Assembly (NCBI RefSeq): GCF_022530855.2
Contig: NZ_CP099567.1
Span: forward strand, 806,001-870,000
From: Candidatus Vondammii sp. HM_W22
Lineage (GTDB): Bacteria > Pseudomonadota > Gammaproteobacteria > Chromatiales > Chromatiaceae
Reading direction: 5' to 3'
Length of the DNA stretch: 64,000 nucleotides
Shown: positions 3,551-64,000 of the stretch, piece by piece
Layout: each line of letters begins with the position of its first letter
How positions within the stretch are numbered: the stretch's first letter is position 1
Notes under the pieces: model-generated
Databases searched by the model: none
Told to the model about the DNA's origin: nothing
The model's input: only the letters and a program-made list of their open reading frames with translations
Translations under genes and position numbers: made by a program

Positions 3551-3589
3551 TTTGGACCCCCTGCGCCTACCAAGTTTCACCACCCCAGC
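3551..3589 (-). other. remnant of tRNA-Leu 5' half (probable att scar), copy 2
   Basis: A second 39-base segment of the same kind on the minus strand begins GCTGGGGTGGTGAAAC and continues TTGGTAGGCGCAGGGG. It also stops after the anticodon stem and has no 3' half with CCCCAGC. Two tandem half-tRNAs of equal length beside an integrase suggest repeated integration and excision. Confidence 0.45.
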
Positions 3590-3686
3590 AGTTGGAGGTG
3601 CATAGTATAGTCTTTCCGCCCCTCAGATCAAACGTAAGTTACAGCCTGCTAACGATTGCGCTGGGCTGTGGTAATATCCCGCCCTG

Positions 3687-4715
3687 ATGAAACGCTCAGA
3701 TTTTAATTATTCCCTGCCTGAAGAGCTTGTTGCCCAGTATCCGACCGAAAAAAGAGGAGGGAGTCGTCTGCTCTGCCTGCAGGGTGGCAGTGATGAAATA
3801 GCAGACCGGTGGTTTTCTGATCTGCCCGACCTGCTTCACCCGGGGGATCTGTTGGTTTTCAACGATACCCGGGTGATGCATGCACGCATGTACGGGGAGA
3901 AAGAGACCGGCGGTAAGGTTGAAATTCTGATTGAACGCGTATTGGAACCTCATCGGGCAGTAGTGCACCTGAGAGCCAGTAAATCCCCGAAAGCAGGGAG
4001 TAAGGTGCTGATATCGGATGTGGCCAAACTAGAAGTGACTGGGCGCCAGGATGACCTGTTTGAGCTTTACTCTCCTGACTTGGATTTTATGGCCCTGATG
4101 CAGCAGATCGGGCATATGCCGCTGCCTCCTTATATCAGCCGGGATGATGAGCTGGTCGATGATGAGCGCTATCAGACTATCTATGCCGATCGTCCAGGTG
4201 CTGTTGCGGCGCCCACTGCGGGGCTGCATTTTGATCAAGCCATGTTGGATCGGCTGTCGGAAAAGGGTGTTGAGCAGGCAAAGGTTACCCTGCATGTCGG
4301 TGCCGGGACTTTTCGCCCGGTGCGGGTCGACCGCCTGGAAGATCATGTGATGCACAGCGAGTATGTGGAGGTGTCGGCCGGGACTTGTGCTCAGGTGCAT
4401 GCCACCCGAGCTCGTGGTGGCAGGGTGGTGGCGGTTGGCACCACCAGTGTGCGCAGTCTGGAGTCGGCATCGGCCGATGGCAGTCTGAAGTCGTTTCAGG
4501 GCGATACCCGGTTGTTTATTACCCCGGGCTACCGCTTTAGGAGTGTGGATCTGTTGATAACCAATTTTCACCTGCCGGAGTCGACCTTGTTGATGCTGGT
4601 TTCAGCCTTCTCCGGCTATGAACAGATCATGGCGGCGTATTGCCACGGGATTGAGCAGAAGTACCGTTTCTTCAGCTATGGTGATGCAATGCTGCTGGAA
4701 AATCGCAGTGGATAA
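3687..4715 (+). CDS. queA: S-adenosylmethionine:tRNA ribosyltransferase-isomerase
   Basis: Transfers and isomerises the ribosyl part of AdoMet onto 7-aminomethyl-7-deazaguanine in tRNA, giving epoxyqueuosine; cytoplasmic. The protein is 342 aa, the usual length, with a standard N-terminus ([19 protein letters not shown]) and the conserved [10 protein letters not shown] (about residues 171-180), [10 protein letters not shown] and [11 protein letters not shown] segments. It is followed by tgt, yajC, secD and secF, the classic gammaproteobacterial order, so it is probably the first gene of that operon. The 206-bp gap before tgt is unusually long and contains a hairpin (AGCGCGG/CCGCGCT, 4740-4763), a possible promoter and a repeat tract. 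Start chosen at the ATG that matches family N-termini. Confidence 0.97.
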
Positions 4716-4852
4716 GCGGGATGGTTGGACAAAAAATAGAGCGCGGGAAGCAAATACCGCGCTTCATAAAGTTCCACCTAAAAGAAGGGTGGAGGAGTGA
4801 GTACTGAAAATATTTTATGAACAGTGAGTATTTTCTAATGTAATGCTGCACT

Positions 4853-4882
4853 GTGTCAAGTAATTAATTTGAGAATTATACT
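4853..4882 (+). promoter_or_regulatory. possible sigma70 promoter for tgt
   Basis: GTGTCA (4853-4858) and TATACT (4877-4882) are spaced 18 bp and match the -35 and -10 consensus in four and five of six positions. If used, transcription would begin close to the first GAATCAT repeat, so the leader would be almost entirely repeat sequence. Confidence 0.3.
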
Positions 4883-4888
4883 GATTTT

Positions 4889-6040
<1,152 letters not shown>

Positions 6041-6172
6041 GAACTAAAAACATATAGAAATACTTAAATTTATCCAAGTTATGTCATAATGCGCCGTTTA
6101 AGCCCTTCTCAGGCATTGTGTCCGGGAGGGAATTTGCAGAATCTTTAAAGTGTATTAACAGGTGAAAACAGC

Positions 6173-6502
6173 ATGAGTTTCTTTATTTCAGACGCTATGG
6201 CCGAGGCCGCCCCTGGAGTGCTTGCAGGTGGTTGGGAAGGTCTGATCTTGCCCATTGGCCTGATCGTAATGCTCTACTTCCTGATGATTCGTCCCCAGAT
6301 GAAGCGTCAGAAAGAGCATGCAAAAGTGGTTGGTGCCCTGGAAAAGGGTGATGAAGTGCAAACTGATGGTGGCTTGATGGGCAAGATCACTGATCTGGGC
6401 GACAATTTTTCCAAGATTGAGATTGCCGATGGTGTTGAGGTCAAGATACGTCGTCAGTCAATCTCTTCAGTGATGCCCAAAGGCACTCTGCAAGAGCTGT
6501 AA
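6173..6502 (+). CDS. yajC: Sec translocon accessory protein YajC
   Basis: Small single-span inner-membrane partner of SecDF. The 109 aa show one hydrophobic segment (about residues 20-40, LILPIGLIVMLYFLMIRPQ) followed by the typical RPQMKRQKEH positive stretch and a cytoplasmic domain with GDEVQTDGGLMGKI. A good ribosome site (AGGTGA) precedes the ATG. It lies 132 bp after tgt and 97 bp before secD. Confidence 0.96.
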   Translation: MSFFISDAMAEAAPGVLAGGWEGLILPIGLIVMLYFLMIRPQMKRQKEHAKVVGALEKGDEVQTDGGLMGKITDLGDNFSKIEIADGVEVKIRRQSISSVMPKGTLQEL

Positions 6503-21359: not shown

Positions 21360-21681
21360 TAATTAGCTGGGAAAGTACGGCGTTGGCAAGATTTTCGGCC
21401 AGGAAAAAAACATCACCACCTACAACCTGGCACGGATGAATATGCTGCTGCACGGGGTCAAGGATTCGGAGTTTGAGATACACCACGGCGATTCACTGCT
21501 GAATGACTGGGCTATGCTTGCCGAAGAAAATCCCGCCAAAAAAATGGAATTTGATGCGGTGGTCGCCAACCCGCCCTTTAGTTATCGTTGGGAGCCGACC
21601 GCTGCGCTGGCTGAGAATTTTCGCTTCAAGAGTTATGGGCTTGCGCCCAAGTCGGCGGCGGATTTTGCCTTTCTGCTGCAC
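21360..21681 (+). pseudogene. hsdM: hsdM fragment, right part, truncated by IS3 copy 2
   Basis: Reads LGKYGVGKIFGQEKNITTYN, LARMNMLLHGVKDSEFEIHH and FDAVVANPPFSYRWEPTAAL. The NPPF motif IV is the catalytic loop of N6-adenine methylases. The gene stops at the IS edge after FAFLLH, so the C-terminal third and hsdS/hsdR are not in the window. Confidence 0.9.
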
Positions 21682-21729
21682 TGACCTTCCCCCCATCTTA
21701 ATACCAAGACTTGGATGAGATAATTCATT

Positions 21730-22547
21730 CTAAGCGGCCCTATTCACAAAGGCCACAGGTGACAAATAATTTAATGCGCTATGAGGCCGCACGTGATTGT
21801 AGTGCTCTCGCCATTGATCAATTTCATGTCTAGCGTCATCAATGGACCTGAACCAATGCTGATTTAAGCATTCATTTCTGAATTTACCGTTTAAGCTTTC
21901 TACAAACGCATTCTGAGTAGGCTTACCTGGCTGAATAAAACCTAGCTTAACGCCACTTTTTTTTGCCAGTAGAACATCGCCTTGCTAGTAAACTCAGTAC
22001 CGTTGTTGCAGATTATTTGATCCGGAGCGCTCCTTAGCTCAATCAGCTGAGTTAAAAAACGAGCGACCTGGTGACCATTGATCGAGAAGTCAGAGAGCTG
22101 GCCAATAACTTCTCTTGAGTAATCATCAATCACATTAAATACTCGAAAGCGGCGACCATTAACCAACTGATCACTGACAAAATCCACTGACCAGCGTATG
22201 TTTTTACCAATGGGCACAATCATCGGTATTCTTGGTCGTATTATCTTCTTGCGTTTTTTAGTCCTCACTTGAAGACCTTCTTCGTTATAGACTCGGTAGG
22301 TCCGCTTCTTGTTTTTCACAAGCCCCTCTCCTCTCAGGAGGCCATGTAAAAACAAATAACCACAACTCGGATGCTTTTTTGCCAGCTCAAGTAACCGTTT
22401 GCGTGGAGGCTCATCTTTTCCCCATTGAGTAACGTACCGAAAAGCGGTTCTACTTAAGCCTACTAATTGGCAAGCTCTACGCTCACTTAATTTGAACCGC
22501 GACTTAAGGTAGCTCACGATTTGTTTTCTATCAGCAGGCTTTACCAC
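21730..22547 (-). pseudogene. IS3-family orfB (copy 2), frameshifted
   Basis: Open for 201 codons through both Asp regions (WSVDFVSDQ; ICNNGTEFTS, where the usual CDNG Asp is Asn). One base is lost from the run near 21960, so the frame leaves after FYWQKK. The Asp-to-Asn change in the second catalytic position would be an independent defect. Confidence 0.88.
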
Positions 22548-22807
22548 TTTTTTGAGAGCACATCCTTCATCGCCTCAGCTTCAAGCATTTTCTCGGCAAG
22601 TAACTTCTTAAGCTTGTTGTTTTCGCTTTCAAGCTCTTTGAGCCGTTTGGCTTCTGAGACATCCATCCCGGCGTACTTGCTTCGCCAATTATAAAAGCAC
22701 CCGGTTGAAATGCCGAACTGACGACAAATGTCATCAACTTTTACCCCTGACTCATGCTGCTTGATGGCACCAATAATTTGCTCTTCTCTGTAACGCTTCT
22801 TCTTCAT
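22541..22807 (-). CDS. IS3-family orfA (copy 2), intact
   Basis: 88 aa identical in layout to the copy 4 orfA: helix-turn-helix (VDDICRQFGISTGCFYNWRS) then a leucine zipper rich in Glu and Lys. Ends in the A6G slippery region shared with orfB. Confidence 0.9.
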   Translation of the reverse strand: MKKKRYREEQIIGAIKQHESGVKVDDICRQFGISTGCFYNWRSKYAGMDVSEAKRLKELESENNKLKKLLAEKMLEAEAMKDVLSKKW

Positions 22808-22984
22808 GTTGAGATCTCCTAATACACAGACTAATTGGAAATCTCATCCTTGTCATGGCTCTATTTCTGGGGGAAAGGTCACTAAAACAGGAGAGTTTAC
22901 AGAGCGCCAGCAGAGGTTTTCTTCGCTTTGTCTTTCGATGGGCATACTCCGCAGGGCAGGGCACTGTTACTTTCCATTAAGGAT

Positions 22985-23163
22985 TTAAAGCCGGTGGCCA
23001 ACAAATCGCTTCAGTGGACGGCTAATCGCTGTCGGTGCCGCCCGGTGGCTGTGGCCGGAGAAGGTGTAGTGGATTTTGCCGGGGAGCCGATACGTTTCGT
23101 AGAGTGCCTCGTGGTGGTGGCTGTCATTACGCTCTGCGCCGGTTGTCGGGTGCAGAGCGGTGG
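22985..23163 (-). pseudogene. displaced fragment of a second metallophosphoesterase
   Basis: Minus strand encodes EALYETYRLPGKIHYTFSGH followed by SHRA, which is motif V (GHSHR) and its lead-in from the large phosphoesterase upstream (ALYETYLLPGKIHYTFSGHS). Similarity ends on both sides. It lies just downstream of the repeat-protein gene, as an orphan tip of another, deleted phosphoesterase gene. Confidence 0.6.
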
Positions 23164-25048
23164 TCATGCCATCTCCCAGGGTGGCGGCTCCAGGGGAGGA
23201 TATCCTGCCGGTTTTTCATCCCAGCACGGGCCGATGACAAGGGGGTGTCTCTCCTGATGCCGGGTTTTTCCCTCGGGAACGGCCGCTCTGACCTCGACCA
23301 TCCAGGGATCGGTGGTGTCGTAGTGCAGGGGGGCACCGGGGGGGGTTGAACCAGAGACAGATGAACGGGCGGCTGTTGCCGGTGTGGTTGAGGGTCTCGG
23401 GGATAAAGAACTGATGGGCCGGTTTGATGGCGCTCAGCTCGAGCAGCTGGCGAGATTCCCCGTAGGGTCCGGTGACGGCGCGCCAGACGGGGTTGCGGTA
23501 GTGTACTCGACCCTCACAGCCCTCGCCGATGACCGCCTCCAGTCGCCCGTCGAAGAGCAGTAGGCTGACACCGCGTAAGGGGGTGGCAGCAGATCGGCGC
23601 CGAGGCCGTAGTGGTTGTGGTAGCGCTCTATCCACTCATGGCGAAACGGGAGCTGGCACTGCAGGTGGTCGAACAGAGCTTCATGAAAAGGGGGATTGGC
23701 ACGGGGAACCGATGTCTTGTAGTCGGCGATCAGGCGATCCTGGAGCTCAACGGCCAGGGAAAGTGGCGGGTCATCGGAGAGGGCTTCGCGCTTGAGGCGT
23801 TCGGTATCGGGCAGGGGCGGACAGGCCGCCAGAGGGCTTTGCTGTCTGGCGGCGTCCCGGAGCTTTTCAGGGAGCGTGCTCTGTCCGCTTTGGAGGTGGC
23901 CGATCTTGAGTCCGGTGGCGGGGAGGAATGCACCCTGGAACTGGACGTTGTGGAGTTGGAGGTGGCGGATGGAGGTGTTGTTCCAGGCATCGATGTTTAT
24001 ATCACCATCAGCTGGATCATTTATATTCAGTGAGAGCTGGACATTGCAAAGTTGCAGTTGCCCGATACGAACATCTTCAAAGAAAGGGGCATGCAGTTGG
24101 CAGTTACGGATGAATAAGTTATCCACTTTCGATTCCCAGAATGATATTCCAAGCGGATTTTGGCAGCCGTCTATGATGATATTTTCAGCCAGCCCGGCGC
24201 CCCAGTGGCGGTTGTTATGATTAATCTGTGTGATGTTTTTCATATGGACAAAACGCACTTTCTTCAAACCGATGTAGATAGCCGAATCCTCCACCAGCAC
24301 ATAGTCCGCCCGCTGTGGTCCGTCGCCGTCGAAATGGCTATTGCGGATGATCAGGCTTTTGAGTTCGCCACCCACCCCGCCGATGACGCGGCTGTTTTCG
24401 ATAAGGACGTTGGAGGGGTATTCTAGGCCAGCTATGAGCGAAGACTCGATGTCCGAGTCTCGAATAAACAGATCCAGTTGTGAGAGACTCAGACTCCCCG
24501 ATCTTTGTTGATGAGATTCATTCACCCCCGTTCTCAGTTTGCTGTGCTCAAAAAAACAGCCGGCTGGGCCTGAGTTTGTCTATGTTTACTTCGATCAGTT
24601 CAGATTCGACAAAATGCACATTATGCAGTCGGCTTTTGACAAAATCCGTCGAGCCCCAGTAAACCGCCTCATCCAGGTTAAAGTAGACCCGGTTGAAGGC
24701 GACATTATCCAGTTCGCTCTCTTTCATCTTTACCCCGATCCAGGTGGCTCCCTCGATGGTGACGTTGGACCAGTCTGCCCGGGTGAGCTTGACGTTGCGC
24801 CAATGGAGGTTGCTCAGCGTCACATTTTTCAGCACCAGACCGGTCAGTTCCAGGTCTTTCAGCCGGGTATCGCTGAGCAGGTCGGGGTTTTGCTCCAGGG
24901 CCGCGTTGAGGCGTTCGACATCTTGCAGCAGTGCTTTCAGTTCACTGCCGGGGGGTAGCGGGGGTATGAGGCTCATAGCGTTTCCTGGGGTTAACGAGAC
25001 AAAAAACAGGCTTCCGATGAGGATGAGTCGGTGGGGCAGGGTGATCAT
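23164..25048 (-). pseudogene. secreted pentapeptide-like repeat protein, copy A
   Basis: Signal peptide (LILIGSLFFVSLTPGNA, cleavage near residue 24). About residues 60-350 are pentapeptide-like repeats (LTGLVLKNVTLSNLHWRNVK, WSNVTIEGATWIGVKMKESE). A Pro-rich linker and a C-terminal domain with Trp and aromatic residues follow. Start ATG 25048 has GAGGAG seven bases upstream, overlapping the phosphoesterase stop, so the genes are coupled. Lesions: seven A instead of six near 24550 shifts the frame after PSRLFF. A second shift near 23590, shared with copy B, moves the C-terminal domain into the frame reading VSLLLFDGRLEAVIGEGCEG, and a third near 23340 leads to DPWMVEVRAAVPEGK and a stop at 23164. 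No named family recognised beyond the repeats. Confidence 0.75.
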
Positions 25049-25057
25049 GTTTTCTCC

Positions 25058-28000
25058 TCAGTAGTCATATATTTCACCGAGTAGTTGTTGTTTTTTAGAT
25101 ATTTCCTTAAAATCCGGCACATCGCTTCTCCCGCCTCCCTTGCGCCGGATAACCACGAGCCTGTTCTCACCCTTCCCAGACTCAGACACACTTGCGGGAA
25201 AACACCAGGGCGAGTCGTAGTCGTAATGGTTATGCAGGAGGCCGTGTTCGATCTGTTTGAGGTGGATGGAGAGGAAGTACATATATTCAGTCGGGCCTGA
25301 TTCTTTTTGCCTTAATTGACGTTTCTTGTGCTCCCCCCACGACATCCCCCCTTCCCCTTCAGCAACCTCATACTCCACATCGACCCCACGAACCGGCACG
25401 AGCGCCGACCGGCTACCGAGGCTTACTCGCTCTGTCCATTGGCTTGCTTCGCAGGCGGTCTGCTTCAGTTGGATATACCCCTGATAGCCTGCTTTGCCGC
25501 CGCTGTGCAGGTGTAGGTGGATCTCATCGAGCATCTTGCCGCCGTGTTCGCTGGCCTTGATCCAGCGCTGATCGAGGCGCAGCCGGAACTGCCTGCCATC
25601 GCCTTTCAGGCCGTATTGCAGCGCCTTGTGCTCGCCTTCGTACCAGAGGTAGTCCAGCAACACCGCCATGCGCGGTCTGGTTTGTGCGTCGCGCACGATG
25701 TTGACCTTGCCGCTTTCGGTATCGAGCTTCGGCCCCTGAGGGGCCTCCATGCCGTAACCGGCGTGCTCTCCCTCGCGGTTCTGCCGGGTGATGGGACCGC
25801 CGGAACCCGCCACCAGCAGGCAGGCGGTGCCGTCCGGGTGGGTGTAGCCATCGGGGTAGTCGCCCCGGGTGGTGATTTTGCGGGTGAGATAGCCGGGCTC
25901 GCCGGTGAGCCGGTAAACCCCCGCCCGGTGGCTGTGGCCGGAGAAGGTGTAGTGGATTTTGCCGGGGAGCAGGTAGGTTTCATAGAGCGCTTTGCGGTTG
26001 TCGTGGAAACTGCCTTCGTCGAGGTTATCCCGGTCCCCCGGGCCGATATCGCCCGGCGACACGTCATCGGCGTCTATTTTGCTGTTGCCGGTCGTCAGCG
26101 GGATATCGGTGGCGTAGTTAACGTAGGTGAAGTGGCTGAGCAGCAGCTTTTCTGCGGACGGGTCTTTTTCAACGGCATTTTGCACCAGGGCCCATTGATC
26201 GTCGGTGCAGGCTTGGTTGGCCCGGGGCAAGGAGCCGCCACCGGTGGCTGTGGAGCCGGCATACTCCTCGTCGTCGCCCCAGCCGAGGCCGATCCAGGTC
26301 TGTTGCTTGCCGTGGGCGGTGAGCCAGTCACGCCAGGGGGTGATCAGGTGGTGCAGCCAGCAGAGGTTGTCGGCTTTGAAGTTGTCCAGGGTGTGGTAGT
26401 GGCCGTAACCGGGACCGTAGAGCAGTGCCGCTTCGTAGATGGTCAGGCCGTGATCGGCGGGGATGCCGGCGTTGGCCGTGGAGGAACATGAACATCCCGT
26501 TCCCTTTGTCAAGGCGCGGGCTGATGCCATAGGGCATTTCGTAGGCCTCGTGGTTGCCGTCGATGTAGCAGACCGGCTTTTGGTAGCGGTCGATGAAGTG
26601 GTGGATCAGGCTGACGGCGTAAAGGGCGTCGATGTGCCGGGGGTAGCGGTCACGGTCGTTATGGTGCGCCTGGTCCATGGCCCGCCAGAGATCACCGGGG
26701 GTGTTGAGGGATTGATGGGCCTCGTGGGCCGGGTCGGCGTTGATGGCGTGGTCGTAGAGATCGCCGGTGAGCAGCAGCAGGTCGATCTCCGGGTCTTTGC
26801 CCATGGCGTCGAGCAGGCGTTTCAGGGCGGCGGCGTTGTGGTGGGACTGGGGGCCGAGTGGGGGCGAGGTGGCGGTGTCGGCGCCGGGGATGAGTTGCGC
26901 CGGGCTGTCTGGGTAGAGGGCCTGGCGGGATGAGAGGTGCAGGTCGCTGAGGTGGCCGGGGTTGAGCTTGGGTTTGTTACTGATGTAGACAGGGTGACGG
27001 CTCTCCAGCCAGAGGCCGCTCTCTGCGGCACCCTCGCTGAAAGGGGTGCCGCCGGTGTAGCGCCCGTCGCCGGTGAGTTCGGGCTGCTTGCGCTGCCGCC
27101 GGTCGCAGGGGTTGAGGCGGCTGCGATCGATCTGCTTGCCGCCCTGCTTTTTTGCCTGACTGAAGTAGTCGGCCTGGAGGCGGTCCTGGGGTTCGTGTGA
27201 ACAGCCGTGGTGTGACTCTTTATCAATGGGTGAGGGGTTCTCCTCTTCGTCGTCGGGGTAGTGCCATACCAAGTTGTAGAGACCCGGGGAGGGGGGCAGT
27301 TTATTGAGGTTGACCTGATAGAGCCGGGTGTAGCCGTGTTTCCGGTAGAAGTCGATGATGTCAGGGTGGAGTATGCCGATGCATTTGCCGTTGTTATCAC
27401 TGACCGGCAGGCCGGTCTCTGAGCTGTTTTTCAGTTCGCCGCGGGGGTATAGGCGGATGTTCTCCTGGGCGGTTTGCCAGTTTTCGTAGATGCGGCCGAG
27501 GTCGGGGTGGTGTTTGTCGCTCTCACCCCAGGGTTTGAGGCGGAATTGGGCGTGCAGCCGCCGCAGGGTCATCGGGCCGATGCTTTTTGCCGGGTTGGTT
27601 TGGCGCTCGGCGTTGATCGCCTGGTGAAAGGCATCGCTCACCGCGAGGATGATCTTTAGCTGTTTTCCCTGCCCGCAGAGCAATGCCGGGGTGCCCAGGG
27701 CGGGGAAGAGGATCAGTGCCTTGTGGGCACGGGATCTGAGGGTGATATCGAGCTTGTCGCGACAGACATTGGCCTGCGCCCAGCCCAGCTCTTCGACGCG
27801 GTCGCCATCGAAGGTCACGGCCGGTGCGCCGTCGCCGGTGCGGATGGTCTGGGTGTGGTTGCGATCGGGTCCCTGGCCGTGGAAGAATTGCAGGGTCAGC
27901 TTCTTCTCCTCCGGCTGCTGGAATGTCGGGAGATACCCCTGGTAGTTGAGGGCCCCCTGTTTGCCGGATGCCTGCACGATCGCCAGCCCCGGGTAGTCGG

Positions 28001-28417
28001 CGAACCAGAGTTCGTCGCGGTACTGCACGCGCCAGATGGGGTCCTCCGGGATGTACTCCTGCGGTAGGGGGGGTTGTAGAAGGGCAGTTCGTTGGGATGC
28101 TTCTGTTTGATCACCCGGCCGTGGTGCCGCAGGTAGGGTATGGCTTCGAGCAACCGGCAGGCGGGGGCGGTGTAGGTGTTGGCGGCGGGGTTGGGAATCC
28201 ATTTTTTTTCGTACCAGACAAGGAGGGGTTGCTCGGGTTGTGGATTGAGGTAGGCCCATCGGCCCTGTTTCAGCCAGGCGGCGATCTCTTCGGTACTGTG
28301 GCGGTGTGGGGCATGGATCAGGAGGCCGGTGAGTGTCAGGCGGTTGATGGCCAGGTCGATGAAGGGCGCCTGTTCACACATGACGTCTTTGATCGGTAGC
28401 AGTTGGCTGTCGTGCAT
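25058..28417 (-). pseudogene. large calcineurin-like metallophosphoesterase, copy A
   Basis: About 1,120 codons from ATG 28417 (GGAG upstream; MHDSQLLPIKDV) to TGA 25058. The first 520 residues have no family I recognise. The phosphoesterase core then shows all five metal motifs: HLSDLHLS (DxH), LTGDLYDHA, IDGNHEAY, LLSHFTYVNY and FSGHSHRAGVYRL, and a C-terminal 200 residues follow. No signal peptide or membrane span. Two copy-specific lesions: an 11-bp loss near 28060 and an 8-bp loss near 26475 (a GTTGGCGC-type slip). Copy B is intact at both places, so the gene was whole when duplicated. Confidence 0.85.
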
Positions 28418-43183: not shown

Positions 43184-43362
43184 TTAAAACCGGTGGCCAA
43201 CAAATCGCTTCAGTGGACGGCTAATCGCTGTCGGTGCCGCCCGGTGGCTGTGGCCGGAGAAGGTGTAGTGGATTTTGCCGGGGAGCCGATACGTTTCGTA
43301 GAGTGCCTCGTGGTGGTGGCTGTCATTACGCTCTGCGCCGGTTGTCGGGTGCAGAGCGGTGG
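43184..43362 (-). pseudogene. displaced fragment of a second metallophosphoesterase, copy B
   Basis: Same EALYETYRLPGKIHYTFSGH fragment as in copy A, with nearly identical bases. Its presence in both copies shows that the orphan tip predates the duplication. Confidence 0.6.
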
Positions 43363-45234
43363 TCATGCCATCTCCCAGGGTGGCGGCTCCAGGGGAGGAT
43401 ATCCTGCCGGTTTTTCATCCCAGCACGGGCCGATGACAAGGGGGTGTCTCTCCTGATGCCGGGTTTTTCCCTCGGGAACGGCCGCTCTGACCTCGACCAT
43501 CCAGGGATCGGTGGTGTTCGTAGTGCAGGGGGGCACCGGGGGGGGTGAACCAGAGACAGATGAACGGGCGGCTGTTGCCGGTGTGGTTGAGGGTCTCGGG
43601 GATAAAGAACTGATGGGCCGGTTTGATGGCGCTCAGCTCGAGCAGCTGGCGGGATTCCCCGTAGGGTCCGGTGACGGCGTGCCAGACGGGGTTGCGGTAG
43701 TGTACTCGACCCTCACAGCCCTCGCCGATGACCGCCTCCAGTCGCCCGTCGAAGAGCAGTAGGCTGACACCGCGTACAGGGGTGGCAGCAGATCGGCGCC
43801 GAGGCCGTAGTGGTTGTGGTAGTGCTCTATCCACTCATGGCGAAACGGGAGCTGGCACTGCAGGTGGTCGAACAGAGCTTCATGAAAAGGGGGATTGGCA
43901 CGGGGAACCGATGCCTTGTAGTCGGCGATCAGGCGATCCTGGAGCTCAACGGCCAGAGAAAGCGGCGGATCATCGGAGAGGGCTTCGCGCTTGAGGCGTT
44001 CGGTATCGGGCAGGGGCGGACAGGCCGCCAGAGGGCTTTGCTGTCTGGCGGCGTCCCGGAGCTTTTCAGGGAGCGTGCTCTGTCCGCTTTGGAGGTGGCC
44101 GATCTTGAGTCCGGTGGCGGGGGGGAATGCACCCTGGAACCGGACGTTGTGGAGTTGGAGGTGGCGGATGGAGGCGTTGTTCCAAGCTCGTGGGTAGCTG
44201 ATAGCTGACTTTTCCGATTCGAGTTCCACTTTCACATCGCATAGCTGGAAAAGCTCCACTTGCGCTCTTTTCAGGTAGGGCTCCGAGAGTACGCAATTAC
44301 GAATATGGAAATTCTGAATACGCGTTTTTTTGCCGATAGTCAGAGAGGAGGAGGCTTTACAACCATCGATAATCACTGTCTCTACTTTGCCAAGCCCAAT
44401 ACCACTGCCTAGGAGCCCGTCATGGAGGTATTCGTTATTCTTCAGATGGATAAAACGTGCGCGGGGGAAGCCGGTGCTTATTTTGGAATCTTCCACCAGC
44501 ACATAGTCCGCCCGCTGTGGTCCGTTGCCGTCGAAATGGCTGTTGCGGATGATCAGGCTCTTGAGTTCGCCACCCACTCCGCCGATGACGCGGCTGTTTT
44601 CGATAAGGACGTTGGAGGGGTATTTCAGCGGGCCTATGATCGAAGACGCAATGTCCGAGTCTCGAATAAACAGATCCAGTTGTGAATGGCCCAGACCCCC
44701 CGATCTTTGTTGATGAGATTCATTCACCCTCGTTCTCAGTTTGCTGTGCTCAAAAAACAGCCGGCTGGGCTTGAGTTTTTTGATACGTACTTCGATCAGT
44801 TCAGATTCGACAAAATGCACATTGTGCAGACGGCTTTTGACAAAATCCGTCGAGCCCCAGTAAACCGCCTCATCCAGGTTAAAGTAGACCCGGTTGAAGG
44901 TGACATTATCCAGTTCGCTCTCTTTCATCTTTACCCCGATCCAGGTGGCCCCCTCGATGGTGACGTTGGACCAGTCTGCCCGAGTGAGCTTGAGGTTGCT
45001 CAGCGTTACATTTTTCAGCACCAGGCCGGTCAGCTCCAGGTCTTTCAGCCGGGTATCGCTGAGCAGATCGGGGTTTTGCTCCAGGGCCGTGTTGAGGCGT
45101 TCGACATCTTGCAGCAGCGCTTTCAGTTCACTGCCGGGGGGTAGCGGGGGTATGAGGCTCATAGCGTTTCCTGGGGTTAATGAGACAAAAAACAGGCTTC
45201 CGATGAGGATGAGTCGGTGGCGCAGGGTGATCAT
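43363..45234 (-). pseudogene. secreted pentapeptide-like repeat protein, copy B (N-terminal 533 aa open)
   Basis: Open from ATG 45234 through the signal peptide, repeat region and linker. A frame change near 43790 (shared with copy A) leaves the C-terminal domain (LLLFDGRLEAVIGEGCEGRV, NPVWHAVTGPYGESRQLLEL) in the next frame. Within the repeats a block of about 100 residues differs completely from copy A: it reads GFPRARFIHLKNNEYLHD and VETVIIDGCKASSSLTIGKK instead of GLKKVRFVHMKNITQ and AENIIIDGCQNPLGISFWES. Flanks on both sides are almost identical. Ribosome site GAGGAG overlaps the phosphoesterase stop. Confidence 0.75.
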
Positions 45235-45243
45235 GTTTTCTCC

Positions 45244-48200
45244 TCAGTAGTCATATATTTCACCGAGTAGTTTTGGGTTATCAAATATATCTTCAAAATC
45301 CGGCACATCGCTTCTCCCGCCTCCCTTGCGCCGGATGGTCACGAGCCTGTTCTCACCCTTCTCAGACTCAGACACACTTGCCGGAAAACACCAGGGCGAG
45401 TCGTAGTCGTAGTGTTTATGCCGGTGGCCGTGTTCGATCTGTTTGAGGTGGATGGAGAGGAAGTACATTGGAGAGCCACCATTAATGATAATCTCTTTCT
45501 TTTCGTTATCAAGATCCCCCCACGACATCCCCCTTCCCCTTCAGCAACCTCATACTCCACATCGACCCCACGAACCGGCACGAGCGCCGACCGGCTACCG
45601 AGGCTTACTCGCTCTGTCCATTGGCTTGCTTCGCAGGCGGTCTGCTTCAGCCGGATATATCCCTGATAGCCTGCTTTACCACCGCTGTGCAGGTGCAGGC
45701 GGATCTCATCGAGCATCTCACCGCCGTGTTCGCTGGCCTTGAGCCAGCGCTCGTCGAGGCGTAGCTGGAACCGCCTGCCATCGCCTTTCAGGCCGTATTG
45801 CAGCGCCTTATGCCCGCCTTCGTACCAGAGGTAGTCCAGCAACACCGCCATGCGCGGTCTTGTTTGTGCGTCGCGCACGATGTTGACCTTGCCGCTTTCG
45901 GTATCGAGCTTCAGCCCCTGAGGGGCCTCCATGCCGTAACCGGCGTACTCTCCCTCGCGGTTCTGCCGGGTGATGGGACCGCCGGAACCCGCCACCAGCA
46001 GGCAGGCGGTGCCGTCCGGGTGGGTGTAGCCATCGGGGTAGTCGCCCCGGGTGGTGATTTTGCGGGTGACATAGCCGGGCTCGCCGGTGAGCCGGTAAAC
46101 CCCCGCCCGGTGGCTGTGGCCGGAGAAGGTGTAGTGGATTTTGCCGGGGAGCAGGTAGGTTTCATAGAGCGCTTTGCGGTTGTCGTGGAAACTGCCTTCG
46201 TCGAGGTTATCCCGGTCCCCCGGGCCGATATCGCCCGGCGACACGTCATCGGCGTCTATTTTGCTGTTGCCGGTCGTCAGCGGGATATCGGTGGCGTAGT
46301 TAACGTAGGTGAAGTGGCTGAGCAGCAGCTTTTCTGCGGCCGGGTCTTTTTCAACGGCATTTTGCACCAGGGCCCATTGATCGTCGGTGCAGGCTTGGTT
46401 GGCCCGGGGCAAGGAGCCGCCACCGGTGGCTGTGGAGCCGGCATACTCCTCGTCGTCGCCCCAGCCGAGGCCGATCCAGGTCTGTTGCTTGCCGTGGGCG
46501 GTGAGCCAGTCACGCCAGGGGGTGATCAGGTGGTGCAGCCAGCAGAGGTTGTCGGCTTTGAAGTTGTCCAGGGTGTGGTAGTGGCCGTAACCGGGACCGT
46601 AGAGCAGTGCCGCTTCGTAGATGGTCAGGCCGTGATCGGCGGGGATGCCGGCGTTGGCGCGTTGGCCGTGGAGGAACATGAACATCCCGTTCCCTTTGTC
46701 AAGGCGCGGGCTGATGCCATAGGGCATTTCGTAGGCCTCGTGGTTGCCGTCGATGTAGCAGACCGGCTTTTGGTAGCGGTCGATGAAGTGGTGGATCAGG
46801 CTGACGGCGTAAAGGGCGTCGATGTGCCGGGGGTAGCGGTCGCGGTCGTTATGGTGCGCCTGGTCCATGGCCCGCCAGAGATCACCGGGGGTGTTGAGGG
46901 ATTGATGGGCCTCGTGGGCCGGGTCGACGTTGATGGCGTGGTCGTAGAGATCGCCGGTGAGCAGCAGCAGGTCGATCTCCGGGTCTTTGCCCATGGCGTC
47001 GAGCAGGCGTTTCAGGGCGGCGGCGTTGTGGTGGGACTGGGGGCCGAGTGGGGGCGAGGTGGCGGTGTCGGCGCCGGGGATGAGTTGCGCCGGGCTGTCT
47101 GGGTAGAGGGCCTGGCGGGATGAGAGGTGCAGGTCGCTGAGGTGGCCGGGGTTGAGCTTGGGTTTGTCGCTGATGTAGACAGGGTGACGGCTCTCCAGCC
47201 AGAGGCGCTCTCTGCGGTACCCTCGCTGAAGGGGGTGTCGCCGGTGTAGCGCCCGTCGCCGGTGAGTTCGGGCTGCTTGCGCCGCCGCCGGTCGCAGGGG
47301 TTGAGGCGGCTGCGATCGATCTGCTTGCCGCCCTGCTTTTTTGCCTGACTGAAGTAGTCGGCCTGGAGGCGGTCCTGGGGTTCGTGTGAACAGCCGTGGT
47401 GTGACTCTTTATCAATGGGTGAGGGGTTCTCCTCTTCGTCGTCGGGGTAGTGCCATACCAAGTTGTAGAGACCCGGGGAGGGGGGCAGTTTATTGAGGTT
47501 GACCTGATAGAGCCGGGTGTAGCCGTGTTTCCGGTAGAAGTCGATGATGTCAGGGTTGGAGTATGCCGATGCACTTGCCGTTGTTATCACTGACCGGCAG
47601 GCCGGTCTCTGAGCTATTTTTCAGTTCGCCGCGGGGGTATAGGCGGATGTTCTCCTGGGCGGTTTGCCAGTTTTCGTAGATGCGGTCGAGGTCGGGGTGG
47701 TGTTTGTCGCTGGTGCCCCAGGGTTTGAGGCGGAATTGGGCGTGCAGCCGCCGCAGGGTCATCGGGCCGATGCTTTTTGCCGGGTTGGGTTGGCGCTCGG
47801 CGTTGATCCCCTGGTGAAAGGCATCGCTCACCGCGAGGATGACCTTTAGCTGTTTTCCCTGCCCGCAGAGCAATGCCGGGGTGCCCAGGGCGGGGAAGAG
47901 GATCAGCGCCTTGTGGGCACGGGATCTGAGGGTGATATCGAGCTTGTCGCGACAGACATTGGCCTGCGCCCAGCCCAGCCCAGCTCTTCGACGCGGTCGC
48001 CATCGAAGGTCACGGCCGGTGCGCCGTCGCCGGTGCGGATGGTCTGGGTGTGGTTGCGATCGGGTCCCTGGCCGGGGAAGAATTGCAGGGTCAGCTTCTT
48101 CTCCTCCGGCTGCTGGAATGTCGGGAGATACCCCTGGTAGTTGAGGGCCCCCTGTTTGCCGGATGCCCGCATGATCGCCAGCCCCGGGTAGTCGGCGAAC

Positions 48201-48621
48201 CAGAGTTCGTCGCGGTACTGCACGCGCCAGATGGGGTCCTCCGGGATGTACTCCTGCGGCCTAGCCCGGTAGGGGGGGGTGTAGAAGGGCAGTTCGTTGG
48301 GACGCTTCTGTTTGATCACCCGGCCGTGGCGCCGCAGGTAGGGTATGGCTTCGAGCAACCGGCAGGCGGGGGCGGTGTAGGTGTTGGCGGCGGGGTTGGG
48401 AATCCATTTTTTTCGTACCAGACAAGGAGGGGTTGCTCGGGTTGTGGGTTGAGGTAGGCCCATCGGCCTTGTTTCAGCCAGGCGGCGATCTCTTCGGTAC
48501 TGTGGCGGTGTGGGGCATGGATCAGGAGGCCTGTGAGTGTCAGGCGGTTGATGGCCAGGTCGATGAAGGGCGCCTGTTCATACATGACGTCTTTGATCGG
48601 TAGCAGTTGGCTGTCGTGCAT
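45244..48621 (-). pseudogene. large calcineurin-like metallophosphoesterase, copy B
   Basis: Same protein as copy A with start ATG 48621. The longest open part (551 codons, from 46994 down) spans the core from LLLLTGDLYDHA to FSGHSHRAG. Copy-specific lesions: one T fewer in the T run near 48410, a 5-bp CCAGC-type duplication near 47980, one extra T near 47558, one C lost near 47207 and one C lost near 45528. The C-terminal 30 residues after the last lesion begin MSWGDLDNEKKEIIINGGSP, unlike copy A (MSWGEHKKRQLRQKESGPTE), before returning to the shared end LLGEIYDY. Confidence 0.85.
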
Positions 48622-48781: not shown

Positions 48782-50166
48782 GAGTTATAACTGAAAGTGG
48801 TGTTTGAAAGGAATTGAAAAAGAGCGGGGTATCTGGTTGATTTGTTGTTGCGAGACATCAAAATAACCATTGGAGATACGCCACCATGAGTAAGAATAAC
48901 GTTGTTAAGCTGGCAGGTCTCGATACGATTATCGATCCGCTGACAGAGTTGCTGAGAAGCGGTGCAGAGCAGTTGATCTACCAGGTGGTGGAGGCCGAGC
49001 TGCTGGAGCTGTTGGCGGAGCACGTCGAGCGACGGGCAGAGGATGGCAAGGCGGGTGTGGTGCGTAATGGTCACCTGCCAGCTCGTAAACTGCAGACAGG
49101 ATTGGGGCCGGTCACGGTCAATATCCCCAAAGTTCGCGCGAAGACCGGCGAGCCGGTAACGTTCCGATCAGCTCTGGTGCCGCCGTATGTACACAAGACG
49201 AAGTCACTGGAAGCGGCGCTGGCGTGGCTCTACCTGAAGGGGATTTCCAGTGGAGAGATGGGTGAAGCCCTGAAAGTGCTGGTGGTTCCGGATGCAACAG
49301 GCTTGTCGGCCGGCAGGGTATCGCATCTGAAGCAGGTCTCGGCAGAAGAATATCGGAGCGGGTGCGAGGAGCGCCTGGATAAGGGCCATTGGGTGTATGT
49401 GTGGGCAGACGGTGTCTACAGCGGACAGAGAGCAGAGCAGACGAAGCTGTGTGCCCTGGTGGTGATCGGCATGAATGAGCGTGGTGAGAAGCATTTTCTG
49501 GCAATTGAAGATGGTGTGCGGGAATCCACACAGCTGGCGGGAGGTACTGTTGAAACTGAAGTCACGCGGACTGACCCCGCCAAAATTGGCGATCAGTGAC
49601 GGTGCCATGGTATTCCGGGCTGCGCTGTAGGAAGTGTATCCGGAGACGCGTCAGCAGCGCTGCTGGATGCACAAGACCATGAACGTGCTGAACTGCCTGC
49701 CAAGGTCAGCTCAGCCGAAAGCGAAGCAGATACTGCATAACATCTGGCAGTCGGAGACCCAGGCCGATGCGGAAAAGGCCTTTGATCTATTTATCAAAAC
49801 GTATGAGCCAAAGTATCCGAAGGCTGCCATCTCTCTGCACAAAGACCGAGAGGAACTGATGGCTTTCTATCAATTTCCTGCGCAGCACTGGCAGAGCATT
49901 CGGACCAGCAATCCGATTGAATCCACCTTCGGGACAATCCGCCATCGAACCAGGCGTTCCAAGGGCTGCCTATCGCGTGACGGCATGCTACACATGATGT
50001 TCAAACTCGGCCTGTGTGCCGAGAAGAAGTGGGGACGATTACGGGGTTTCGATTACCTGGCGAAGGTGATAACCGGAATCAAATTTAAAGAGGGTGTTGA
50101 GGTAGCAGGAGTCGATCAGGTCGACGCTTGATTCAACTGGCTAAACACCAGATTTGACTATAACTC
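48782..50166 (+). mobile_element. IS256-family element with perfect 9-bp target duplication
   Basis: Inverted ends GAGTTATAACTGAAAGTGGT (left) and, inverted, GAGTTATAGTCAAATCTGGT (right). TGTTTTGAC flanks both sides (48773-48781 and 50167-50175). The intact duplication points to a fairly recent insertion. Confidence 0.9.
48886..50131 (+). pseudogene. IS256-family transposase, frameshifted with in-frame TAG
   Basis: Residues 1-220 are open (GVVRNGHLPARKLQTGLGPV, IPKVRAKTGEP, WVYVWADGVYSG with the first Asp). A one-base shift near 49530 is followed in the new frame by WREVLLKLKSRGLTPPKLAI, SDGAMVFRAAL and a TAG at 49628, then QQRCWMHKTMNVLNCLPRS to the end, including the Glu region. Dead by two lesions. 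Confidence 0.9.
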
Positions 50167-51863: not shown

Positions 51864-52198
51864 GTGTATCATTTAACTAAATATTTTTTGTTCTTACTGT
51901 ACCTTCTTCATTCAAGCAGTTTGTTTGCGAATAATGTCGAAAACAAATTTATCTTGGCGGGATTGATCGACGTTATCACTGTAGATAGATCCATAGCAGG
52001 TCGACCTTGTCAATTCCGATCCTGAAAAGAACTTCTTTGAGCAGGACTTTTACGATGGATTGAACAAGGCGTATCTTTAGGAAGCACATTGCTGTGATGC
52101 TTTCGAACGCCTAACGCGTCTTGAAGAAAGAGAAAACTACCTATTCACTTCAGGTGCTCGATGCGGCGCGCCCCAGGTTTATTCCTCGCGCCACGTAC
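51864..52198 (+). pseudogene. secreted unknown protein, frameshifted and truncated by IS3 copy 3
   Basis: From GTG 51864 a signal peptide (YFLFLLYLLHSSSLFA) leads into NNVENKFILAGLIDVITVDR, then a TGA at 52023. One base away the next frame reads DPEKNFFEQDFYDGLNKAYL, a TAG, then EAHCCDAFERLTRLEERENY up to the IS edge. AT-rich like the ATP-grasp gene. No family recognised. Confidence 0.45.
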
Positions 52199-52246
52199 TG
52201 ACCTTCCCCCCATCTTAATACCAAGACTTGGATGAGATAATTCATT

Positions 52247-53066
52247 CTAAGCGGCCCTATTCACAAAGGCCACAGGTGACAAATAATTTAATGCGCTATG
52301 AGGCCGCACGTGATTGTAGTGCTCTCGCCATTGATCAATTTCATGTCTAGCGTCATCAATGGACCTGAACCAATGCTGATTTAAGCATTCATTTCTGAAT
52401 TTACCGTTTAAGCTTTCTACAAACGCATTCTGAGTAGGCTTACCTGGCTGAATAAAACCTAGCTTAACGCCACTTTCTTTTTGCCAGTAGAACATCGCCT
52501 TGCTAGTAAACTCAGTACCGTTGTCGCAGATTATTTGATCCGGAGCGCTCCTTAGCTCAATCAGCTGAGTTAAAAAACGAGCGACCTGGTGACCATTGAT
52601 CGAGAAGTCAGAGAGCTGGCCAATAACTTCTCTTGAGTAATCATCAATCACATTAAATACTCGAAAGCGGCGACCATTAGCCAACTGATCACTGACAAAA
52701 TCCATTGACCAGCGTATATTTTTACCAATGGGCATAATCGTTGGCATTCTTGGTCGTATTATCTTCTTGCGTTTTTTAGTCCTCACTTGAAGACCTTCTT
52801 CGTTATAGACTCGGTAGGTCCGCTTCTTGTTTTTCACAGGCCCCTCTCCTCTCAGGAGGCCATGTAAAAACAAATAACCATAACTCGGATGCTTTTTTGC
52901 CAGCTCAAGTAACCGTTTGCGTAGAGGCTCATCTTTTCCCCATTGAGTAACGTACCGAAAAGCGGTTCTACTTAAGCCTACTAATTGGCAAGCTCTACGC
53001 TCACTTAATTTGAACCGCGACTTAAAGGTAGCTCACGATTTGTTTTCTATCAGCAGGCTTTACCAC
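52247..53066 (-). pseudogene. IS3-family orfB (copy 3), early frameshift
   Basis: One extra A near 53024 (TTAAAGG against TTAAGG) shifts the frame after about 14 codons. From 52873 on, 208 codons are open and include both Asp regions (WSMDFVSDQ, IICDNGTEF) and the C-terminal Glu region (NAFVESLNGKF). Confidence 0.88.
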
Positions 53067-53326
53067 TTTTTTGAGAGCACATCCTTCATCGCCTCAGCTT
53101 CAAGCATTTTCTCGGCAAGTAACTTCTTAAGCTTGTTGTTTTCGCTTTCAAGCTCTTTGAGCCGTTTGGCTTCTGAGACATCCATCCCGGCGTACTTGCT
53201 TCGCCAGTTATAAAAGCACCCGGTTGAAATGCCGAACTGACGACAAATGTCATCAACTTTTACCCCTGACTCATGCTGCTTGATGGCACCAATAATTTAC
53301 TCTTCTCTGTAACGCTTCTTCTTCAT
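53060..53326 (-). pseudogene. IS3-family orfA (copy 3), nonsense at codon 10
   Basis: Carries the same CAA-to-TAA change at codon 10 as copy 1, otherwise the full 88 codons. Copies 2 and 4 have CAA. Confidence 0.85.
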
Positions 53327-53400
53327 CTTGAGATCTCCTAATACACAGACTAATTGGAAATCTCATCCTTGTCATGGCTCTATTTCTGGGGGAAAGGTCA

Positions 53401-62751: not shown

Positions 62752-62825
62752 TGGCCTTTCCCCCAGAAATAGAGCCATGACAAGGATGAGATTTCCAATT
62801 AGTCTGTGTATTAGGAGATCTCAAG

Positions 62826-63092
62826 ATGAAGAAGAAGCGTTACAGAGAAGAGCAAATTATTGGTGCCATCAAGCAGCATGAGTCAGGGGTAAAAGTTGAT
62901 GACATTTGTCGTCAGTTCGGCATTTCAACCGGGTGCTTTTATAACTGGCGAAGCAAATACGCCGGGATGGATGTCTCAGAAGCCAAACGGCTCAAAGAGC
63001 TTGAAAGCGAAAATAACAAGCTTAAGAAGTTACTTGCCGAGAAAATGCTTGAAGCTGAGGCGATGAAGGATGTGCTCTCAAAAAAGTGGTAA
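62826..63092 (+). CDS. IS3-family orfA (copy 4)
   Basis: 88 aa DNA-binding subunit: EEQIIGAIKQHESGVKVDDI, CRQFGISTGCFYNWRSKYAG and a zipper, ending KDVLSKKW. The slippery heptamer A AAA AAG at 63080-63086 precedes the stop, so ribosomes can shift -1 into orfB to give the fused transposase. Confidence 0.93.
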   Translation: MKKKRYREEQIIGAIKQHESGVKVDDICRQFGISTGCFYNWRSKYAGMDVSEAKRLKELESENNKLKKLLAEKMLEAEAMKDVLSKKW

Positions 63093-63904
63093 AGCCTGCT
63101 GATAGAAAACAAATCGTGAGCTACCTTAAGTCGCGGTTCAAATTAAGTGAGCGTAGAGCTTACCAATTAGTAGGCTTAAGTAGAACCGCTTTTCGGTACG
63201 TTACTCAATGGGGAAAAGATGAGCCTCTACGCAAACGGTTACTTGAGCTGGCAAAAAAGCATCCGAGTTATGGTTATTTGTTTTTACATGGCCTCCTGAG
63301 AGGAGAGGGGCTTGTGAAAAACAAGAAGCGGACCTACCGAGTCTATAACGAAGAAGGTCTTCAAGTGAGGACTAAAAAACGCAAGAAGATAATACGACCA
63401 AGAATGCCAACGATTATGCCCATTGGTAAAAATATACGCTGGTCAATGGATTTTGTCAGTGATCAGTTGGCTAATGGTCGCCGCTTTCGAGTATTTAATG
63501 TGATTGATGATTACTCAAGAGAAGTTATTGGCCAGCTCTCTGACTTCTCGATCAATGGTCACCAGGTCGCTCGTTTTTTAACTCAGGTGATTGAGCTAAG
63601 GAGCGCTCCGGATCAAATAATCTGCGACAACGGTACTGAGTTTACTAGCAAGGCGATGTTCTACTGGCAAAAAGAAAGTGGCGTTAAGCTAGGTTTTATT
63701 CAGCCAGGTAAGCCTACTCAGAATGCGTTTGTAGAAAGCTTAAACGGTAAATTCAGAAATGAATGCTTAAATCAGCATTGGTTCAGGTCCATTGATGACG
63801 CTAGACATGAAATTGATCAATGGCGAGAGCACTACAATCACGTGCGGCCTCATAGCGCATTAAATTATTTGTCACCTGTGGCCTTTGTGAATAGGGCCGC
63901 TTAG
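63086..63904 (+). CDS. IS3-family orfB transposase (copy 4)
   Basis: 272 aa integrase-type DDE transposase: RACQ-type HTH_21 start, RVYNEEGLQVRTKKRKKIIR, then WSMDFVSDQLANGRRFRVFN (first Asp), IICDNGTEFTSKAM (second Asp) and TQNAFVESLNGKFRNECLNQ (Glu). Overlaps orfA by seven bases in the -1 frame. It is the likely source of trans-acting transposase for the three defective copies. Confidence 0.93.
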   Translation: MVKPADRKQIVSYLKSRFKLSERRAYQLVGLSRTAFRYVTQWGKDEPLRKRLLELAKKHPSYGYLFLHGLLRGEGLVKNKKRTYRVYNEEGLQVRTKKRKKIIRPRMPTIMPIGKNIRWSMDFVSDQLANGRRFRVFNVIDDYSREVIGQLSDFSINGHQVARFLTQVIELRSAPDQIICDNGTEFTSKAMFYWQKESGVKLGFIQPGKPTQNAFVESLNGKFRNECLNQHWFRSIDDARHEIDQWREHYNHVRPHSALNYLSPVAFVNRAA

Positions 63905-64000
63905 AATGAATTATCTCATCCAAGTCTTGGTATTAAGATGGGGGGAAGGTCAATCTGATTGAGGTGAACATCAAATTTCTCTGATTGTTCCGCCATAGTC

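Follow-up and report, generated by a model that had tools for sequence, protein, structure and literature searches.

Apparent segment exchange among paralogous pentapeptide-repeat genes, putative T6SS immunity genes paired with metallophosphoesterase genes, in Candidatus Vondammii

The closest described systems are found among immunity genes of bacterial secretion systems. For the T7SS, the accessible part of one report describes paralogous immunity genes, esaG of Staphylococcus aureus and tipC of Streptococcus, in which recombination at conserved blocks exchanges variable segments, so that the nearest relative changes from one part of a gene to another (PMC9484751). For the T6SS of Vibrio cholerae, immunity genes are reported, in the portion of the text available, to be retained in arrays after displacement of their effectors (PMC5361080). 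We analyzed two copies, A and B, of a gene pair encoding a calcineurin-like metallophosphoesterase (MPP) and a pentapeptide-repeat protein (PPR) in a 64,000-nucleotide stretch of the genome of Candidatus Vondammii sp. HM_W22, hereafter called the window. Like esaG and tipC, as far as the accessible text of PMC9484751 describes them, the PPR genes of the window combine a conserved anchor, a variable segment and a conserved end, and the relationships of their segments conflict. However, the secretion system and the proteins are different, and the esaG/tipC copies are described there at one locus, whereas the units studied here are dispersed (PPR genes outside this genome stand in tandem at three loci).

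The genome is a single contig of 3.35 Mb and contains five units, each consisting of an MPP gene and then a PPR gene. Units A and B are located in the window (Table 1), unit C at ~734-739 kb, unit D at ~2375-2380 kb and unit E at ~377-382 kb. The PPR of copy C (L009:5618-7501) is the sole full-length PPR of the five, with 627 aa and a score of 48.6 bits against the Pfam pentapeptide cut-off of 38, and MPP is disrupted in all five copies as assembled; for these reasons, the units may be decaying. Many one-base indels were observed between copies, and because some lie in homopolymers and others elsewhere, the frame breaks fit sequencing error and real decay alike. The PF00149 domain scored 32.7 bits in MPP copy A and 35.8 and 31.9 bits in the MPPs of two outside loci (L054 and L043), compared with the cut-off of 21.5, and the copy B frame alone scored below it (14.9 bits). 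In the MPP alignment, the GDL and GHSHR residues and the H of GNH were invariant; we take GDL, GNH and GHSH to be the metal-binding motifs of calcineurin-like metallophosphoesterases. In MPP copy E, a 174-bp in-frame deletion near L011:9750 removes the stretch with the GN of GNH; in copy A, the short repeats CACGAGGC flank both ends of the corresponding stretch. The AlphaFold model of an intact outside MPP had a mean pLDDT of 31.8 and was set aside, and since the sole match of the MPP profile to solved structures was meaningless (E 0.9), we propose no substrate. The end of a second MPP is present in a frame of 167 aa located 3' of PPR copy D (L010:12438-12941), which suggests that the units formerly stood in tandem. 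The C-terminal 270 residues of PPR copy C (~357-627) have no Pfam match of their own; full-length PPRs of outside loci are shorter (387-482 aa).

Table 1. Positions of the features of units A and B in the window
Feature	Position	Strand	Remark
Second-MPP remnant 3' of PPR copy A	23038..23118	-	longer in copy D (L010:12438-12941)
PPR gene, copy A	23164..25048	-	frame broken (split); extent from comparison with intact copy C (L009:5618-7501)
Divergent block, copy A	23989..24283	-	PPR segment common to copies C and D; 97.4% identical to C and D, 48.8% to B
Conserved anchor preceding the block, copy A	24286..24409	-	encodes VLIENS...DYVLVEDS
MPP gene, copy A	25058..28417	-	frame broken; PF00149 32.7 bits against cut-off 21.5; start read from sequence
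Second divergent patch, C-terminal tip of MPP copy A	25270..25339	-	three versions: A, B/C/D, E
Second-MPP remnant 3' of PPR copy B	43237..43317	-	same remnant as beside A
PPR gene, copy B	43363..45234	-	open for 533 aa, last part out of frame; signal-peptide-like start; low end from full-length match and stop codon
Divergent block, copy B	44188..44485	-	residues 251-352 of the 533-aa frame; apparently imported, unique version
Conserved anchor, copy B	44488..44611	-	same anchor, placed by the A/B offset
MPP gene, copy B	45244..48620	-	frame broken; start approximate

The original prediction, which had been made from the window alone, described a sharp-edged divergent block within the PPR gene of two near-identical copies, and the comparison of A and B confirmed it. 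DNA identity was 48.8% in the block (rounded, 49%, against 92-98% in the flanking gene parts): the N-terminal, middle and C-terminal parts of PPR outside the block were 95.9, 92.0 and 98.4% identical, respectively, and the MPP core 99.4%. A BLAST comparison of the window with itself returned two homologous stretches, 22840-23988/43057-44187 (96.3%) and 24284-28557/44486-48762 (95.7%), both of which end at the block, and a plot of identity in sliding windows, proposed together with the prediction, agreed with it. The block is also AT-richer than its surroundings, as had been stated, with GC contents of 0.44 (A) and 0.48 (B) compared with 0.54 upstream and 0.64 downstream. The two versions had been called almost unrelated; this holds for their DNA but not for the encoded segments of 101 and 102 aa, which are homologous (local alignment score of 130, compared with a maximum of 41 over 1000 shuffles). 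Between C and B, protein identity in the block was 31% across 99 codons. The second divergent patch, toward the end of the MPP gene, was 68% identical between A and B, and positions 25058-25269 were 91.5% identical.

We compared the five units to determine which copy had changed. In the block, A, C and D agree at 97.4-100%, B alone differs (47.6-48.8%), and E presents a third version that is 68-69% identical to A, C and D. Upstream of the block the copies group the other way: identity among B, C and D is 98.5-100% per segment and A stands apart, being closest to E in the first MPP segment (99.0%). Among sites informative for A, B and C, 120 join B with C upstream of the block, 9 join A with C and 13 join A with B, whereas inside the block the corresponding counts are 2, 146 and 2; in PPR downstream of the block, they are 7, 6 and 10, without clear grouping. 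The reversal between block and upstream part is strong (Fisher's test, 7e-62), with the reservation that the sites of one imported tract are non-independent. The synonymous divergence between C and A is even (dS of 0.12-0.15 in both the N-terminal part and the block), whereas that between C and B is low on both sides (0.03 N-terminal, 0.04 C-terminal) and reaches saturation within the block. The reversed site patterns (146:2 in the block and 9:120 upstream) and the contrast in dS argue that the block of B was imported by recombination after B split from C and D, and that A inherited its block together with its own upstream part. The original prediction had considered a cassette received by one copy through gene conversion, under a heading that pointed to copy A (23985-24285); the comparison supports an import, but the recipient is B (44188-44485), as the block of A is common to C and D. 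A search with the protein of B found no second copy of its block version in the same genome, so no donor was found there; the donor would be a unit of another strain, or one lost since. Copy B is mosaic at more than one place, because 3' of the PPR gene the similarity of A and B continues as far as ~22884, over a stretch in which C, D and E are different.

Relatives of MPP were searched for in the class (3 of 369 genomes, E 1e-10), in the phylum (3 of 398, 1e-12) and in the family of genome G727 (8 of 294, 1e-30), the own or centre genome being counted in, and among genome contigs, where 168 stretches matched and four were confirmed (two of them, L041 and L042, repeat the loci L039 and L038). 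The outside MPP loci number 13 in total. In five genomes of one genus, MPP is conserved over the first 400 alignment columns (74-100% protein identity per 50-column window), and beyond column 400 it is of type a (L054, L064) or type b (L065, L066, L067), with identities of 11-82% between types, 51-93% within a and 71-100% within b. In L054, the type-a MPP is accompanied by a PPR gene of its own and by a second one, PPR2, that is 89.6% identical to the PPR of the type-b locus L066. This fits the retention model of the V. cholerae arrays as given in the available portion of PMC5361080; however, whole immunity genes are added there, whereas segments within genes are exchanged here. The sole PPR gene of L064 is a chimera, similar to the L054 gene beside the type-a MPP up to about codon 267 (222:63 sites) and to that of L066 thereafter (23:170), with p values uncorrected for the scan.

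Mosaic PPR genes were observed in two further genomes (G1093 and G811), and their junctions fall close to the V-L-[IVM]-E motif that also marks the junction in the window. In the window, six pairs of the copies A, B, C and E were compared over the 124-bp anchor (24286-24409) and gave identities of 93-98%, although just upstream of it E was 49-51% identical; the block of B starts immediately after the motif DYVLVEDS. In L064 the switch is gradual, over ~60-90 nt around and past the motif, and the crossover is known only to that range. In the tandem array of three PPR genes in L055, an identical 403-nt tract is common to PPR1 and PPR3 and absent from PPR2; it starts 48 nt ahead of DVLIED. In one multiple-alignment mode, the window, g348 and L055 genes have the V-L pair of the motif at the same place, and in the other mode the window genes are one column off. 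The PPR pair of L068 has neither the V-L motif nor a clear mosaic.

The original prediction further suggested that the block marks a partner-binding surface. A version of this idea, namely that the block binds the resident effector and was swapped to match an effector that had changed, is in our view doubtful. The block does lie inside a predicted solenoid, and polymorphism is expected at binding faces, but its variation does not follow that of the resident MPP, so a role as partner-binding surface is unproven. Between B and C/D, the tip and end of the putative effector are 98.5-100% identical (B-C: tip 100%, end 99.5%) but the block is 49% identical; between A and C/D, the tip is 67-68% identical but the block 97%. 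The N-terminal part of PPR, in contrast, does covary with the end of the resident MPP, which may reflect linkage, or hitch-hiking, of the closer neighbour. Moreover, L064 combines a type-a MPP with a PPR that is of type a in its 5' half only and of type b in its 3' half. Nor were hydrophobic positions protected from the exchange, with identity at 16 of 45 of them compared with 15 of 54 elsewhere (p = 0.5); 34 of the 45 stayed hydrophobic across the exchange and 8 of the 54 others turned hydrophobic. The structural model of PPR had a mean pLDDT of 62 (blocks of residues 40-390 mostly 58-89, with dips to 42), and its Foldseek matches were HetL, MfpA and QnrB1 (PDB 3du1, 2bm5 and 2xtw; E 1e-3 to 5e-3, with low TM-scores). 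PPR is accordingly modelled as a solenoid fold, too coarsely to place a binding face. It resembles these three proteins in the predicted solenoid and in matching Pfam pentapeptide models, and differs from them in its export-like start and in the T6SS-type effector gene beside it; DNA gyrase is named as the target of QnrB1 and MfpA in the accessible part of PMC8747328. Across these few copies, the pattern suggests that the N-terminal half handles the resident effector, and that exchange of the later block proceeds separately from this, perhaps against variants of other strains.

Another reading is that copy B is an assembly or strain chimera, its block being misjoined or taken from another strain. 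The original prediction had named an assembly chimera as an explanation that would undo it. Assembly is difficult for near-identical repeats longer than 5 kb, the copies differ by many one-base indels, several of which fall in homopolymers, and no second source of the block of B was found in the assembly. However, the replacing segment is a homologue of the replaced one, keeps the reading frame, fits in length (101 vs 102 aa) and starts at the conserved anchor, and comparable mosaics are present in G1093 and G811; these observations make a chimera unlikely. A strain chimera, moreover, would still place both alleles in nature.

We examined the genes around the outside MPP loci using Pfam, and found T6SS genes adjoining or near MPP at 8 of the 13. 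At six loci (L054, L064, L066, L067, L068 and L070), VgrG and DUF4123 genes lie upstream of MPP (in L068, only the C-terminal part of VgrG); L039, which ends within MPP, has a VgrG tail upstream; and in L043, genes for TssC, a ClpB-type ATPase and a GPD protein lie downstream. L044 resembles L043, and L065 resembles L064 and L066, by gene order and protein starts or similarity alone. Among the ORFs around L055 and L069, no T6SS gene was seen by eye, and L038 is cut at a contig end. PPR directly follows MPP at all 12 loci with a visible next gene, as assigned by Pfam at nine and by blastp to those nine at three (L044, L066 and L069). Of 13 outside PPR proteins scanned against the Pfam pentapeptide cut-offs, eight scored above, four below all and one at the cut-off, and the window-type PPR shares 22-26% identity with the outside PPR families (best E 2e-5). 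PPR starts look export-like by eye, with basic residues and a hydrophobic stretch, and 11 of 18 contain a loose lipoprotein-like Cys pattern. Peak hydrophobicity near the start was 1.17-2.92 in PPRs and 0.77-1.76, further in, in 12 MPPs, and these ranges overlap.

In the own genome, matches to TssC/VipB (419.5 bits) and to the VgrG GPD domain (241.3 bits) were found, a count that concerns these genes and not the completeness of the whole system. Unlike at the outside loci, no VgrG lies near the five units, and the four VgrG-domain matches of the own genome are all elsewhere. PPR was detected in 1 of 55 genomes of relatives, namely the own genome, and in 4 of 210 genomes of the order, three of these being marginal partial matches of 18-19 bits. 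A plasmid collection gave no match to the intact PPR or to the MPP of copy E, and among viral contigs three stretches fitted the pattern and none encodes a relative.

Because T6SS genes occur at 8 of the 13 loci and PPR stands next to MPP at all 12 that could be judged, the pair is best read as a T6SS effector and its exported immunity protein. We consider it likely that the units are paralogous effector-immunity units of T6SS type, with MPP as the effector and the exported PPR as the immunity protein, and that their PPR segments have been exchanged by recombination; toxicity of MPP and protection by PPR are inferred. According to this model, the T6SS spike would deliver MPP, which would act outside the cytoplasm of the rival, and the exported beta-helical PPR protein would neutralise it. 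Homologous recombination, with the anchor and the 3' part as its conserved ends, would swap solenoid coils among immunity genes, and immunity variants would arise by the exchange of segments and not by point mutation. A more specific version is possible and is offered tentatively: the antidote would be a modular coil whose first half tracks its own effector and whose second part is swapped at a junction that is both fixed and conserved and extends the protection to other variants, in an undescribed T6SS pair scattered over several lineages.

It is also conceivable, and to our judgement rather improbable, that PPR is not an immunity protein and instead serves as a T6SS accessory or spike-assembly protein of the DUF2169/TvpB kind. 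Pentapeptide proteins are reported to contribute to virulence in a T6SS cluster of Burkholderia glumae (PMC8747328, text available in part), and the accessible portions of two further reports describe the pentapeptide protein as a C-terminal extension of DUF2169/TvpA or as the separate protein TvpB (PMC11883445, PMC13373197). However, PPR is placed after the effector gene and has an export-like start, and no DUF2169 match was obtained in the subset of neighbours of MPP and PPR genes that was scanned, the upstream neighbour of PPR being MPP. Tandem PPR genes, in two or three diverged copies, were observed at three loci (L054, L055 and L068), which would be expected of immunity genes and less of assembly factors.

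We further analyzed substitution rates, since strong diversifying selection on the block had been proposed as an alternative origin of its divergence. In the block, dN and dS were 0.004 and 0.12 between C and A, and 0.30 and 1.04 between C and E; between C and B, dN was 0.70 and dS was saturated and not computable. For C and E, the N-terminal part gave dN of 0.25-0.32 and dS of 0.62-0.82, so that dN/dS was 0.29 in the block compared with 0.39-0.41 in that part. In every computable non-identical comparison dN was lower than dS, and the rates (0.004/0.12 for C-A and 0.30/1.04 for C-E) thus lend no support to that proposal. Divergence of the block in place, through strong positive selection on point mutations and without import, would account for its being the most divergent part of the gene, with three versions (A/C/D, B and E), but is highly improbable, because dS is low on either side and saturated in the block between B and C, which would demand an extreme local rate, silent sites included, and because the sharp edges, the reversed site patterns, dN below dS for C-A and C-E, and a C-E dN/dS no higher than in the N-terminal part all speak against it. 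The pattern appears to be a swap of long-diverged versions, with no visible point-wise positive selection, and long-term balancing selection on the block versions is possible.

As regards known T6SS loci, the order VgrG, DUF4123, effector and immunity-like gene at the six outside loci is that of VgrG-DUF4123 loci in general, and differs in that the effector has a PF00149 domain and its neighbour encodes a PPR protein. No description of an MPP-PPR pair of the T6SS was found in the literature searched, which included the accessible parts of PMC11481896, PMC12419801 and PMC13373197 (for PMC3482391, a term search in part of the text) and had most subscription papers and bioRxiv preprints outside its scope. 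From the sequence comparisons, the recombination block is judged to be real; mosaic and retained immunity genes are already known, and the pairing of MPP with PPR was not found described. If the model is correct, T6SS competition would gain a further class of enzymes together with a novel kind of antidote, and solenoid immunity proteins could change by swapping entire coils at a preferred junction. Which half sets specificity could be tested directly with natural chimeras such as the L064 gene, both of whose parents have known relatives.

Other genes were observed beside the units. In L038, positions 3559-6228, after the MPP-PPR pair, encode a secreted-looking protein of 889 aa, named ankyrin-like repeat protein by eye. 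Four copies of a 1.2-kb insertion sequence, presumably IS3-like, are present in the window at 215-1418, 21680-22882, 52197-53400 and 62752-63955 and are 98-99% identical; one of them abuts the downstream end of unit A, and the copy beside that unit matches HTH_Tnp_1. An insertion-sequence end seemingly retained downstream of copy B was dropped as a candidate, the overlap being weak on reading. A transposase of the Mutator family, named by Pfam on the first part of the window copy and by similarity for the copy beside D, adjoins units B (48886-50131) and D (L010 4239-5486), in two frames in the window and as a 415-aa open frame beside D.
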